36,662 nt of DNA from Candidatus Yanofskybacteria bacterium RIFCSPHIGHO2_01_FULL_41_26 (GTDB lineage: Bacteria > Patescibacteriota > Minisyncoccia > 2-02-FULL-40-12 > GWA2-44-9): NCBI GenBank assembly GCA_001794055.1, contig MGJB01000011.1:1-36662 (forward strand), in the 5' to 3' direction. This document shows, piece after piece, positions 11,581 to 31,800 of this stretch; positions within the stretch are counted from its first letter, which is position 1, and every line of letters starts with the position of its first letter. The notes beneath the pieces were generated by a model that saw only the letters and a list, made by a program, of their open reading frames with translations, had not been told where the DNA came from and ran no database searches. The position numbers and the translations under genes were made by a program.

Positions 11581-13317
11581 ATGAAATTGCATGATAATTT
11601 ACGCATAAATATATTTTTTATTCTTGTCTTGATTGTTTCAAGCCTGATTTTATACAGGCTTTTTATTTTATCTTATATCCGACATTCGGTTTATTCCCGT
11701 ACTGCGACGGCTCAAAAAGATAATGTCACTAACATTTTGGCCCGGGGTAATATATACATGAATGATCCGGCATCAAATAGCTTATTTCTTGCCGCTACCA
11801 ATAAAAAGTTTCCCTTGGCTTACGTTGTTCCTACTAAGGTTGACTGGGCAAACGATGAGGAAAAGACGACCCAAGCAGCAGATATTTTAAAAGTTGACAA
11901 AAATTTAATTCTAAACACAATCCAATCAGGGCAGAATTATTCTAAAGTTTTGGCAAGAAGGCTTGATGCGAGTCAGGTTGAGGGTATAAAAAATTTAAAC
12001 TTAAGAGGACTAGGGATTTCATATGAAACTGACAGATTTTATCCTGGACAAAAATTGGCGGCTAATGTTTTGGGTTTTTTGGGATATGATTTGAACGGTC
12101 GTTCGGGACAATATGGGATTGAATCTTATTATGATGACGATCTTTTTGGCAGGGCAGGAGTAAAATCATCGACCGCGACAGGAATGTTTAGTTTTATTAA
12201 AAATATTGTTTATCGCAATAAGAAAAGTTCGCTGGCTGGTGAAAACGATGCATTCAACCGTCCGTCGGATGTTGTTTTGACTATAGACAAAAATATTCAG
12301 GCTTATGCAGAAGACAAGCTTGAAAATGTGCTGAAAAAATGGAATGCCCAAGGGGGGACAATTATTGTTCAGGACCCCAATACCGGCAAAATATTAGCTA
12401 TGGCCGATAAGCCGTCATTTGATCCTAATAATTATAGTGATTATCAATCCGGCTTGTTTTTGAATAAAGGCGTGCAAGAAGTCTTTGAGCCCGGTTCGTC
12501 TTTCAAACCCATAACGATGTCTATGGGACTAGATCTCGGCAGAGTTTCTTCTCAAACGACATTTACCGATGTTGGTTTTGTTCAAGCCGCTGAATATACA
12601 ATACATAATTTCAGCAACAAAATTTTCGGTTCTCAAACGATGTCTCAAGTATTGGAAAAATCCATAAATACCGGAGCCATGTTTGTCGAAAATCTTGTGG
12701 GTGATGAAAACTTTCTTAACTATGCCATCAACACCGGATTCGGACAAAGAACAGGCATAGATCTACCGGGCGAGGTAAACGGAGATATAACTAATTTATA
12801 CAGTGGGAGAAAAATTAATTATCTGACGGCATCGTTCGGCCAGGGAATTGCGGTTACGTCCATACAGCTTATTAATGCTTACTCGGCTATTGCAAATGGG
12901 GGCAAGCTTATGAAACCTTATGTTGTTGAAAAGATAATCAAAGAAGGAGGAGAAGAAGTGATTACCAAGCCGGAGATAATAAGCATTCCATTTTCAAAAA
13001 AAACATCAGACAAATTGAAGTCGATGCTGATTGGGGTGGTAGATAACGGCTTTGATAAAGCCAAGATTAAGGGGTATGATATAGCCGGTAAAACCGGGAC
13101 TGCGCAAATACCTGACGGGAAAGGCGGTTACGACAAAACGGAATTTATTCACGATTTTATGGGGTTTGCGCCGGCTTATGATCCTAAGTTTGTAATTTTG
13201 ATAAAAATGGACCGGCCCAAAGGTATTCAATTTGCCGCCGACAGTTTGTCTCCGACGTTCAGAGAAATGGCGCAGTTTTTAATTAATTATTACAAAATTC
13301 CACCTACTAGAAAGTAA
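11581..13317 (+). CDS. ftsI: Peptidoglycan transpeptidase, FtsI/PBP2 class
   Basis: 578 residues with an N-terminal membrane anchor (about 9-31), a pedestal domain with GLGISYETDRFYPGQKLAANVLGFLGYD and a transpeptidase domain. The active-site motifs are S306-S-F-K309 (in EPGSSFKP), S361-I-N363 and K504-T-G506. The enzyme cross-links septal peptidoglycan and is the target of beta-lactams. Its place between the FtsL-like gene and murF supports a division-specific role. All three motifs are intact and the length is normal. Confidence 0.95.
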   Translation: MKLHDNLRINIFFILVLIVSSLILYRLFILSYIRHSVYSRTATAQKDNVTNILARGNIYMNDPASNSLFLAATNKKFPLAYVVPTKVDWANDEEKTTQAADILKVDKNLILNTIQSGQNYSKVLARRLDASQVEGIKNLNLRGLGISYETDRFYPGQKLAANVLGFLGYDLNGRSGQYGIESYYDDDLFGRAGVKSSTATGMFSFIKNIVYRNKKSSLAGENDAFNRPSDVVLTIDKNIQAYAEDKLENVLKKWNAQGGTIIVQDPNTGKILAMADKPSFDPNNYSDYQSGLFLNKGVQEVFEPGSSFKPITMSMGLDLGRVSSQTTFTDVGFVQAAEYTIHNFSNKIFGSQTMSQVLEKSINTGAMFVENLVGDENFLNYAINTGFGQRTGIDLPGEVNGDITNLYSGRKINYLTASFGQGIAVTSIQLINAYSAIANGGKLMKPYVVEKIIKEGGEEVITKPEIISIPFSKKTSDKLKSMLIGVVDNGFDKAKIKGYDIAGKTGTAQIPDGKGGYDKTEFIHDFMGFAPAYDPKFVILIKMDRPKGIQFAADSLSPTFREMAQFLINYYKIPPTRK

Positions 13318-27770: not shown

Positions 27771-27797
27771 TTAGCAGTCTTGACATGTGATTGCCAG
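27771..27797 (+). promoter_or_regulatory. Degenerate CIRCE operator
   Basis: TTAGCAGTC, nine bases, then GATTGCCAG. The left half differs from the CIRCE consensus TTAGCACTC at one base; the right half matches GAGTGCTAA at six of nine. HrcA, encoded just downstream, binds CIRCE, and the -35 box is inside the element. Confidence 0.55.
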
Positions 27798-27809
27798 TTT
27801 TGATATTAT
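27780..27809 (+). promoter_or_regulatory. Promoter of hrcA-grpE-dnaK
   Basis: TTGACA (27780-27785), an 18-base spacer and TATTAT (27804-27809). The hrcA ATG follows after six bases, so the transcript should be leaderless. Confidence 0.7.
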
Positions 27810-27815
27810 TTTAAT

Positions 27816-28589
27816 ATGTTAAGGAATAGACAGGCTATGCCTACCGGCAGGCAAATAAAGCTGCTGGACTTCATAATAAGAGAGCATGTAAAAACCGCAA
27901 AACCGGTAGGGTCTGTTTTGATAGCCAAAAAAGCAGGTTTTAAGGTTAGTTCGGCCACTTTAAGAAATGAGATGGGGGCACTGGAGAAAGCTGGCTATTT
28001 GGCTCAGCTCCACACATCCGGCGGGAGGGTGCCAACAGACAAAGCTTACCGATACTATGTAAATTCTTTATTGGAGACCAAGAAAAATCTAAACCTTGAA
28101 ACGGGACATAAAAATAAAATCAAAGATGCGCTTAATGGGACACCTCCCGATCCAAGAGAAATAAATAAAGTTGTCGCCAGAGTATTGTCTAATCTTTCGG
28201 AAAATCTGGTAATAACTGGTATTTCACAGGATCAAGATTTTTTTAAAAAAGGGCTAGTAAGTTTATTTGAAAATCCGGAGTTTAAAGAATTTGGTGAAGC
28301 ATTTCAACTGGCCAAATTTTTTGAAGAGTTTGAGGGGATGTTTCAATTTATTGAAAGAGAATTCTTTAACACATTGGGAGCTCCACGAGGTGTGCCGGTT
28401 CAGATAATGATAGGCAAGGAGAGTCCTTTTAAGCAAATTCAACACGAAACAGTTATGTGTGCCAAATATGGCCTTCCGGGAAACTGTGTCGGTTCATTGA
28501 CACTAGTTGGGCCTACGAGAATGGATTATGAGAAAAATATCGCTTTAATCAAATTTATGACTGAAGAATTAAATAAATTAATTAAATAA
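27816..28589 (+). CDS. hrcA: Heat-inducible transcription repressor HrcA
   Basis: 257 residues, shorter than the usual ~340. The N-terminal winged helix is clear: IKLLDFIIREHVKTAKPVGS, SSATLRNEMGALEKAGYL and HTSGGRVPTDKAYRYYV. The central effector domain is reduced, and the C-terminus with ENIALIKFMTEELNKLI-like sequence is kept. HrcA represses heat-shock genes through CIRCE until GroEL fails to keep it folded. The family N-terminus L-x-x-RQ-x-I is interrupted after RNRQ by the seven residues AMPTGRQ, encoded by a CTACCGGCAGG palindrome. grpE follows after nine bases. Confidence 0.9.
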   Translation: MLRNRQAMPTGRQIKLLDFIIREHVKTAKPVGSVLIAKKAGFKVSSATLRNEMGALEKAGYLAQLHTSGGRVPTDKAYRYYVNSLLETKKNLNLETGHKNKIKDALNGTPPDPREINKVVARVLSNLSENLVITGISQDQDFFKKGLVSLFENPEFKEFGEAFQLAKFFEEFEGMFQFIEREFFNTLGAPRGVPVQIMIGKESPFKQIQHETVMCAKYGLPGNCVGSLTLVGPTRMDYEKNIALIKFMTEELNKLIK

Positions 28590-28598
28590 CTTAAAATT

Positions 28599-29033
28599 AT
28601 GGATGAACCAAATAAACAACAAGGGGTTGACATCGAAACAGTGACACAGAACAAAGAAGAAGAGTACCTGAATAACTGGAAACGAGAACGAGCTGATTTT
28701 TTGAATTATAAAAAGGACGAGTCGCGGCGTATGGAGGAATTTGTGAAATTCGCCAACGAGGACCTAGTTCTTGAGATGATGGAACTGGTGGATGATCTAG
28801 AGATTGTGGCAAAAGAAATTCCCGGTGTCGGTCTGGAACATATAAGTAAAAGATTCAGTGAATTATTTAAAAAGTATGGCGTGGAGAGAATTAGTGTAGA
28901 TGGCCAGTTTAATCCCGCTCTACACGAAGCAGTAGAAACGGAAAAAGAAGGGACAAAAATGGTAGAAGTCAGGGCGGGATATACAATGCACGGCAAAGTT
29001 ATCCGGCCGGCAAGAGTAAGGTTAACAAAATAA
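28599..29033 (+). CDS. grpE: Nucleotide exchange factor GrpE
   Basis: 144 residues. A long charged N-terminal helix (LNNWKRERADFLNYKKDESRRMEEF) leads into the compact beta domain with GVERISVDGQFNPALHEAVETE and VRAGYTMHGKVIRPARVRLTK, the GrpE signature. It dimerises and releases ADP from DnaK. It lies second in the hrcA-grpE-dnaK operon. The gap to dnaK (142 bases) is filled by a folded GC-rich element. Confidence 0.95.
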   Translation: MDEPNKQQGVDIETVTQNKEEEYLNNWKRERADFLNYKKDESRRMEEFVKFANEDLVLEMMELVDDLEIVAKEIPGVGLEHISKRFSELFKKYGVERISVDGQFNPALHEAVETEKEGTKMVEVRAGYTMHGKVIRPARVRLTK

Positions 29034-29035
29034 TC

Positions 29036-29162
29036 GAGGCTCGTATAACATCTTTGCAGTGACCGTTCGTCCACCCCTGCGGCGGACTCACTAGTGCTCG
29101 GTCTGACGCAGATCCAAGCCGTCAGACCTGTGCAGTCACTTTAAAGACATTATTCTCGCCTC
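29036..29162. other. Folded intergenic element A, grpE-dnaK
   Basis: The whole gap is one imperfect hairpin. Outer arms 29036-29063 and 29135-29162 pair at about 20 of 28 positions, and the apex contains the perfect nine-base stem GGTCTGACG (29100-29108)/CGTCAGACC (29120-29128). It is markedly richer in G and C than the flanking genes. Within an operon it would be transcribed and could shape the ratio of GrpE to DnaK. Confidence 0.6.
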
Positions 29163-29175
29163 TAACAAATTTTTT

Positions 29176-31059
29176 ATGAGTAAGATTTTAGGAATAGACT
29201 TAGGAACAACTAATTCGGCGATGGCAATAGTGGAAGTAGGTCAACCGAGAATATTGGAAAACAAAGAAGGAATGAGAACTACTCCATCTGTTGTCGCCAT
29301 GGGTAAAAATGGCGAAAGATATGTCGGTGTAACCGCCAAGAGGCAAGCCGTAACTAATCCGCAGAATACTATTTTTTCAGTAAAACGGCTTATTGGCCGC
29401 CGATTTTCAGATACCGAAGTTCAAAAGGATAAAAAACTTCTTCCATACGAACTGAAAACTGGCGCTCATGATGATATTGAGATAAAAATGGGCGATATGT
29501 GGCTTAAACCGGCTGAAGTATCGGCAATGATCCTTCAGAAATTAAAAGCAGATGCCGAAGACAGATTGGGAGAAAAAATAACAGATGCAATTATTACCGT
29601 TCCGGCATATTTTGACGACTCTCAAAGAAAAGCAACCAAAGATGCAGGAGAAATTGCCGGGTTGAATGTTAAAAGAGTTATTAACGAACCGACTGCCGCT
29701 GCACTTGCTTACGGATTAAACAAAAAGAAGGACGAAAAGATTGTCGTCTATGATTTTGGCGGAGGAACATTTGATGTTTCTGTGCTGGAAATCGGAGACG
29801 ACACCATTGAGGTTAGAGGAACTGGCGGAGATACGCATTTGGGTGGAGATGACATAGACCAGAGGATCATCAACTATTTCATAGAAGAATACAAAAAAGA
29901 GCATGGGGTAGATATTTCCAAAGACCAATTGGCCGTCCAACGTTTAAAAGATGCCGCCGAGAAAGCTAAGCATGAGCTTTCCAGCACTTTGCAGACGGAA
30001 GTAAGCATCCCCTTCATTTCTGCCGACGCTTCTGGCGCAAAACATTTCTCTGTTATTTTTACCAGAGCTAAACTTGAAGAACTGGTTAAGGATTTGGTGG
30101 ACAAATCAATTCAACTTACAAAAAAAACTTTGAACGAAAGCGGATTTAAAATTAGCGATATCAACGAGATCATTATGGTTGGCGGACAGACGAGGATGCC
30201 TTTGATAGTTGAGGAAGTGAAGAAATTATTTGGAAAAGATCCTCACAAAGACATAAACCCAGATGAAGTGGTTGCTTTAGGGGCAGCGGTGCAGGGAGGA
30301 ATTATGCAGGGCGAAATTCGTGATGTGTTATTGCTTGATGTGACGCCATTATCGCTGGGAATTGAAACTCTTGGACAGGTGTTTACTAAAATGATAGAAA
30401 AAAATACCACTGTTCCGGTTTCTAAATCCCAAATATTCTCAACCGCTGCTGACAACCAGCCATCGGTAGAGATTCATGTATTGCAGGGAGAAAGAGCGAT
30501 GGCGCATGACAACAAAACTCTTGGAAGATTCATTCTTGACGGCATTCCTCCGGCGCCAAGGGGTATTCCTCAAGTTGAGGTTAGTTTCGACATAGATGCT
30601 AATGGAATCCTCAATGTAAAAGCCAAAGACAAGGCTACTGGTAAAGAACAGTCGGTAAAGATAGAGGGCTCTTCCGGTCTGACAGAAGACGAAAAGAAAA
30701 GAATGATGGCTGATGCCGAAAAGCATGCCACTGAAGATGCCAAAAAGAAAGAATTGGTTGAAATCAAGAATATAGCAGAAGCACTTGTCTATACTTCGGA
30801 GAAGATGCTTCGCGAAAATGGTGCTAAAATAAAAGATGAGGACAAAGAGGAGCTAAAAGCTAAAAGCGAAAAGCTAAAAGTTGAATTGAGATCAGAAAGT
30901 GTTGAGGAAATCAAAAAAGCCACCGAAGAATTATCCAAAGTGGTACAAAGAGTCGGGGGAGAATTGTATAAATCCGGCCAAGCAGAACCGCAACCGACAC
31001 CGCCAACACCAGAGAATGAAATTCCTAAGGAAGACCCTAAAGAAAAACCTAAAAACTAA
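29176..31059 (+). CDS. dnaK: Chaperone DnaK (Hsp70)
   Basis: 627 residues, complete. [15 protein letters not shown] is the phosphate-1 loop, [32 protein letters not shown] and [15 protein letters not shown] are Hsp70 signatures, and [13 protein letters not shown] and GAAVQGGI are in the ATPase domain. [16 protein letters not shown] starts the substrate domain, and a Pro-rich charged tail closes the protein. It binds unfolded peptides with DnaJ and GrpE. The linker is [10 protein letters not shown], as usual. It is last in the operon. dnaJ is not adjacent but 2.7 kb away. Confidence 0.97.
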
Positions 31060-31289: not shown

Positions 31290-31625
31290 ATGGTTACTAT
31301 AATTTTTGAATCTCATGGCACTACGACCGACAATGAAAAACATTTAGCCTCAGGTTGGGCTGATGTTGAATTATCTGAACTTGGAATTCGACAATCAAAA
31401 GAAATGGGTCAGAGATATGCTAATGATAACTTTGATGCTATATTTTGTTCTGATTTACGAAGGTCGTATGAAAGTGCTCAAGTAGGTTTTGGTGGCAAGT
31501 TTCCTGTCATCAGAGATGTCCGATTAAACGAATGTAATTACATTGAAAGATTATATCTTGGAGTCAGACATTTAACGCGTGGCCTGTTGCTGATTTTGTC
31601 ACTTGACGAGGTGATATTACTTTAG
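31290..31625 (+). pseudogene. Histidine-phosphatase-like protein, C-terminally truncated
   Basis: The first ~85 residues match the histidine phosphatase (phosphoglycerate mutase) superfamily: FESHGTTTDNEKHLASGWADVELSELGIRQSKEMGQRY, then FDAIFCSDLRRSYESA and RLNECNY. The catalytic R-H-G reads S-H-G, which also occurs in a subgroup of these proteins. After NECNY the expected GD-(F/L)-T block and the second half with the catalytic His are absent and replaced by 27 unrelated residues. It is probably a broken copy cut by the neighbouring hairpin element. If expressed it should be inactive. Confidence 0.6.
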
Positions 31626-31800
31626 AGCGACCCAGCCACATACTCCCAGGGAGAACTTGCGCAGGCCCCAAAGCTTGGTGCTTGGTGAGGGGCCGAGCAT
31701 GTAGATGGCCGAGGCTCGCAGGAAGCCGAGGACTATCGGTCGAATCGGGGGTATGTGGCTAGAGAGCGAATCAGAAAAGTGATGGAGTTAAGATATTATT
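31626..31800. other. Folded intergenic element C
   Basis: AGCCACATAC (31634-31643) pairs perfectly with GTATGTGGCT (31751-31760). Inside are GGCCCC (31664-31669)/GGGGCC (31689-31694) and two smaller stems. No coding frame is visible. It is GC-rich and begins at the stop codon of the truncated phosphatase gene. Confidence 0.6.

Follow-up and report, generated by a model that had tools for sequence, protein, structure and literature searches.

A copy of an uncatalogued three-armed repeat family in the grpE-dnaK gap of a Candidatus Yanofskybacteria genome

Introduction

In Candidatus Yanofskybacteria bacterium RIFCSPHIGHO2_01_FULL_41_26, the gap between grpE and dnaK is filled by a structured element, and the question that this locus raises is whether the element serves the heat-shock genes on either side of it or came there as something else. 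We examine it within the window, by which we mean the whole analysed stretch of 36,662 nucleotides (contig MGJB01000011.1 of assembly GCA_001794055.1). The original prediction, made from the letters of the DNA, was that of a hairpin transcribed with the operon and acting as an RNA thermometer-like or processing element that tunes the output of DnaK. Small and streamlined as the genomes of Patescibacteria are, there is in them a structured repeat, patchy in its distribution, whose base pairs covary very strongly and which Rfam lacks, and we will argue that the element is a copy of it. We consider it probable that this repeat is a non-autonomous palindrome, dispersed in Paceibacteria (Ca. Yanofskybacteria and relatives), which spread as DNA and left one of its copies between grpE and dnaK, where that copy would act after insertion as a partition of the mRNA, with no sensing of temperature.

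Structure and setting of the element

The features of the region are the following:

27780..27809, + strand, promoter-like site 5' of hrcA (TTGACA-18-TATTAT), 11/12 match
27816..28589, + strand, hrcA-like ORF 5' of grpE (ORF list; named from its sequence only)
28599..29033, + strand, grpE (ORF list; homologues in 28/28 family genomes)
29022..29049, + strand, possible promoter-like site TTAACA-16-TATAAC, overlapping the end of grpE and the P1 5' arm
29036..29162, + strand, whole three-way-junction repeat, from the fold (covariance-model match at 29039-29154, model R2, 57.2 bits, E 4e-13)
29036..29063, + strand, P1 outer stem, 5' arm (GAGGCTCG...CAGTGAC), from the fold and arm complementarity
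29069..29087, + strand, P2 hairpin GUCCaCC[CCUGC]GGcGGAC, its loop fitting the family consensus UCCAGCG/UCCUGCG
29095..29134, + strand, P3 hairpin, stem 29100-29108/29120-29128, from the loop pattern and R2
29109-29119, + strand, P3 loop CAGATCCAAGC (family loop NAGANCCAAGC)
29135..29162, + strand, P1 outer stem, 3' arm (GTCAC...CTCGCCTC), from the fold and arm complementarity
29163..29175, + strand, A/U-rich 13-nt spacer TAACAAATTTTTT, directly followed by the dnaK ATG
29176..31059, + strand, dnaK (ORF list; GIDLGTTNS motif)
31634..31765, - strand, second family copy, 3' of dnaK (R2, 103.7 bits, E 1e-26)

The segment 29000-29180 is predicted to fold at -53.5 kcal/mol, against a mean of -40.4 for shuffled sequences (z -3.7, with 0/200 shuffles as good), and the gap alone (29034-29175) at -50.4 kcal/mol, with a z of about -5.7 to -6.4. 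This bears out the original prediction of a real structure in the gap, and also of its end at 29162, 13 nt before the dnaK ATG at 29176. A stable fold thus fills the gap as had been proposed, but it is no plain hairpin: the predicted structure is a three-way junction, made of the P1 outer stem and the two inner hairpins P2 and P3. The arms of P1 (29036-29063 and 29135-29162) are 28 nt each and 75% complementary; the loop of P2 is CCUGC, and that of P3 can also be written CAGAUCCAAGC. This genome has many strong hairpins that fill gaps: 61 of its 137 co-directional gaps of 45-260 nt reach z <= -2, against 3/33 divergent ones.

No Shine-Dalgarno-like run is visible in the spacer 29163-29175 ahead of the dnaK ATG, and a search of the window for the CIRCE operator (TTAGCACTC-N9-GAGTGCTAA), allowing up to 3 mismatches, gave 0 matches. 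Just 3' of dnaK lies a histidine phosphatase fragment of 111 aa (31290-31625, + strand), which matches the domain over its first part only. No match to ribosomal protein L1 (PF00687) turns up in the taxonomic family (28 genomes), while all 14 control genomes have one.

A dispersed repeat family

A plain DNA search with the gap, in its own genome and in the order, returned only the gap itself and short weak matches. The first lead was one weak match of 40 bases (L156:10486-10525) in which the P3 loop is kept and both sides of the stem are changed, and a search with the loop pattern then gave further copies in the source genome of the window (G000) and in a congener (G012). The consensus of 12 copies has 28 pairs, with compensatory changes in 21 of them. 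A first covariance model, R1, found 10 copies in the source genome and 23 in the congener, and it has matches in 23/45 genomes of the order and 40/286 of the class. Because the window copy was among the sequences behind R1, we made a further model, R2, on 41 copies that include neither window copy; its alignment was fitted using R1, so that a slight dependence stays. R2 has matches in 22/28 genomes of the taxonomic family; the tally of about 147 copies in those 22 includes three weaker copies besides the R2 set.

In the alignment of 41 copies, 92.2% of the cells are paired and two-sided changes are seen at 27/28 modelled pairs, while the covariation score is 0.795, compared with 0.202 for shuffled alignments and at most 0.15 for slid ones. 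Against Rfam, nothing but tRNAs rises above the gathering threshold in the window, the L156 copy has no relevant match, and we found nothing in the literature on such repeats in these bacteria. From its sequence, then, the window element is identified as one copy of a dispersed, previously uncatalogued three-armed repeat family without Rfam entry.

The design of the family combines a long P1 of almost free sequence with inner hairpins, P2 and P3, whose loops are conserved. Many copies also carry short tags at their ends: CGCTC stands at the 5' end in 19/42 copies, where 0.96 would be expected, and the 3' end has either CGCTT or CGCTC in 15/42 (2.4 expected). These tags are direct (CGCTC...CGCTY), and the outer arms are inverted repeats that vary between copies.

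Pairing kept at the DNA level

Comparison of divergent copies gives 1481 two-sided differences and 26 one-sided ones. G-U pairs make up 1.4% of the pairs without two special positions and 6.8% with them, the tRNAs of the same genomes having 4.7%. Since G-U pairs are few and differences are two-sided, pairing at the DNA level fits better than selection on a single RNA strand, and we infer that the pairing is kept as DNA. A bolder version of this idea, to which we give little credence, is that three-way-junction DNA elements move throughout the class as folded single strands whose arms are rewritten together, and that such elements and other palindromes have been repeatedly recruited as grpE-dnaK spacers that set the stoichiometry of the chaperones. 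During such rewriting, one arm of a stem would template the other, which would explain why the arms differ almost only by two-sided Watson-Crick changes.

Dispersal, orientation and mobility

Of the 24 mapped copies, 23 overlap no called gene, and the genes beside the copies are ordinary ones (HtrA-like protease, H+-PPase, SecD, MurB, EF-G). The copies in co-directional gaps are evenly split, with 9 in the sense orientation and 9 in the antisense one. Pairs of copies less than 3 kb apart are mostly convergent, with 11 pairs in the order + then - and 1 in the order - then + (p 0.006). Between sortase and secD, the congener has a (+) copy, an ORF and a (-) copy, where the orthologues of the source genome lie about 33 nt apart; the element is thus present in one congener and absent in the other at this interval, with no exact empty-site junction seen. 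The dispersal of copies, their occurrence on either strand and this presence and absence between congeners are best read as the signs of a non-autonomous mobile palindrome. Its spread would have been at the DNA level, with insertion into intergenic gaps in both orientations, presumably by means of an enzyme acting in trans. In one relative (G030), a family copy lies in the grpE-dnaK gap on the strand opposite to that of the window copy, so this gap was probably entered independently in the two genomes.

No clean target-site duplication was seen at the sites inspected, and neither an autonomous partner nor a mobilising enzyme was found. A RAYT/Y1 transposase as mobiliser is not supported, as the 30 Y1 loci tested hold 0 family copies and several copy-bearing genomes have no Y1 gene.

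Some individual copies deserve description. In the congener, two inverted copies surround a 352-aa ORF (L142:10463-12112); this ORF (L142:10740-11798) has no match in Pfam or NCBIfam and was rejected as a candidate transposase for want of any family match. In both congeners a family copy separates dnaK from an ASCH-domain gene (window 31634-31765 and L150:17902-18031), in opposite orientations relative to dnaK, and the ASCH gene of the window (31801 onward) looks truncated. A small palindrome, CCCACACTCATGCATGAGTGTGGG, lies within the P3 loop of L116:12603-12764 (- strand), with AAGC on each side, and also beside the copy at L142, at about 11881-11912; judged from its sequence, its occurrence in the L116 copy is a nested insertion.

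Hairpins in the same gap of relatives

Among the 26 family genomes in which the gap could be measured, 22 have a grpE-dnaK hairpin with z <= -2. These hairpins are mostly of unrelated sequence (the gap of the congener holds an unrelated 71-nt hairpin), and most of them end 6-15 nt before the dnaK ATG. Comparison of the gap in relatives had been proposed with the original prediction, and it thus finds the strong hairpin to recur and the sequence mostly not to. The background was taken from 20-kb stretches of 20 of these genomes: of the gaps sized 45-260 nt, 40/72 have a strong hairpin (Fisher p 3e-4), and the figure is 40/181 when every co-directional gap is counted (p 8e-10). The rpsB-tsf control gap has one in 7/25. 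These counts come from related genomes and are not fully independent, a simple script served to call the gene starts, and rpsB-tsf is the one control pair completed. With these limits, the counts suggest, and do not prove, that a hairpin in the grpE-dnaK gap is useful. Exceptions are found in G027, G028, G029 and G024, where the gap is of 19-23 nt or has no strong hairpin, and the distance from hairpin to next start is alike at other genes. At four loci (L052-L055, of G020, G026, G024 and G025), the grpE-dnaK gap is of 516-681 nt and holds, by eye, an apparent small heat-shock-protein-like ORF.

What the copy may do in the operon

A thermometer in this position would hide the start of dnaK translation when the cell is cool and melt upon heat shock, and its site just 5' of dnaK in a heat-shock operon is what speaks for it. 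RNA thermometers work by keeping the ribosome binding site hidden while the temperature is low (PMC3669281), but the predicted structures leave the AUG largely unpaired at 30-42 C, outside the fold, and show it partly paired at 10-20 C with pairing partners that the model does not tell apart. In the model, the hairpin has a mean pairing of 0.67 at 45 C, which falls to 0.61 at 65 C, so that it stays mostly paired beyond 60 C; there is no Shine-Dalgarno-like run to be hidden, the sequence is that of a dispersed repeat, and unrelated hairpins take its place in relatives. We thus abandon the thermometer of the original prediction as extremely improbable. A riboswitch or small RNA acting from the sense strand would account for the very strong covariation and the conserved loops, but it sits badly with the even orientation of the copies, their unrelated neighbour genes, the scarcity of G-U pairs and the lack of an Rfam match, and we hold it to be highly unlikely. 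Only slightly less so is a terminator followed by a separate dnaK promoter. The candidate promoter at 29022-29049 would favour it, but 13 promoter-like sites are found in 4.5 kb and 8.9 in shuffles, so matches of this kind are expected by chance and the site is only a possible promoter, from which a start would cut into the 5' arm. No terminator-like site was found in the gap, which has no GC stem with an immediate U tract (the U run near the element begins several nt past the stem), and the gaps of relatives are often too short for both signals. As the best promoter-like match nearby is the one upstream of hrcA and the gap has no terminator-like site, the claimed transcription of the element with the operon is plausible.

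Two readings of the copy as part of such an mRNA carry more weight. Selection may favour any strong hairpin in this gap, as an mRNA processing or stability element that separates the levels of grpE and dnaK mRNA, the mobile repeat having merely supplied one. This is a serious possibility, for which the recurrence of mostly unrelated hairpins, their position before the ATG and their excess over background and control gaps all argue, and there is precedent in the ERIC repeats, which change mRNA stability when co-transcribed between genes (PMC2229807), so that a mobile palindrome can have such an effect. Against it stand the four genomes in exception, the similar spacing at other genes, the relatedness of the genomes and the single control pair. 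The palindrome may also be neutral, sitting in a gap that tolerates it and leaving expression unaffected, though this is somewhat doubtful: gap-filling hairpins are common and the copies lie beside unrelated genes on both strands, but hairpins are over-represented in the grpE-dnaK gap. The window copy is divergent and the arms of its outer stem reach no more than 75% complementarity, so that it may be old and inert.

We return to the reading of a mobile repeat that acts after insertion, which the enrichment of hairpins at grpE-dnaK supports. The copy in the gap would be co-transcribed and would partition the mRNA, as a nuclease barrier or a cleavage site, and the hrcA-grpE and dnaK parts could then decay separately. 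Of the processing role in the original prediction, it is only the generic form, a partition or processing of the operon mRNA, that is possible in the light of the relatives; the element is not a heat sensor specific to dnaK. The element shows how palindromic mobile DNA can fill operon gaps, and the recurrent unrelated hairpins at grpE-dnaK make it possible to ask, as in an experiment of nature, whether such insertions come to be used for setting the ratios of the chaperones. The case also calls for caution, as covariation and the neighbourhood of a heat-shock gene do not, on their own, indicate a riboregulator.

Comparison with known systems

Among the closest known systems are the ERIC/IRU/RU-1 and NEMIS (Correia) repeats, which are of about 105-155 bp, intergenic, palindromic and non-autonomous, and which can be co-transcribed with their neighbours with an effect on mRNA stability or RNase cleavage (PMC2229807). 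The Paceibacteria element differs from them in sequence and phylum, in its three-way junction, where the inner loops are conserved and the outer stem is of almost free sequence, and in that no TIR/TA insertion signature was found for it. The CIR repeats of Caulobacter are also structured intergenic repeats with more than one arm (PMC2229807), but their lineage and sequence differ, and no GANTC-loop design is seen here. ROSE-type RNA thermometers share a structured leader adjoining a heat-shock gene, whereas the window element does not cover a ribosome binding site and no melting is predicted in the physiological range.

REP/REPIN sequences with their RAYT (Y1) transposases are likewise dispersed intergenic palindromes, comparable to the mostly convergent close pairs of the Paceibacteria element. 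The REPs are, however, of 20-40 bp (PMC3733652), unlike the Paceibacteria element, which is moreover absent from every Y1 locus tested. The window has a RAYT-like Y1 transposase gene of its own (1120-1743, + strand), though it is flanked by a different palindrome, ACAATGGGGGTCTTTGTA...TACAAAGACCCCCATTGT, at about 1058-1105 and 1747-1788, which recurs in the genome at L121:1721 and L163:3778.

Another group of repeats, with the sequence GCTCTCTCTCGGC...GCCTCCGAACGTTCTTCTTTGGG, is found at L174:19730-19832, L124:11916-12018, L121:13056-13159 and L164:16352-16450. They match R2 weakly (E 0.0008-0.05) and are possibly a distant subfamily of the three-way-junction repeat.
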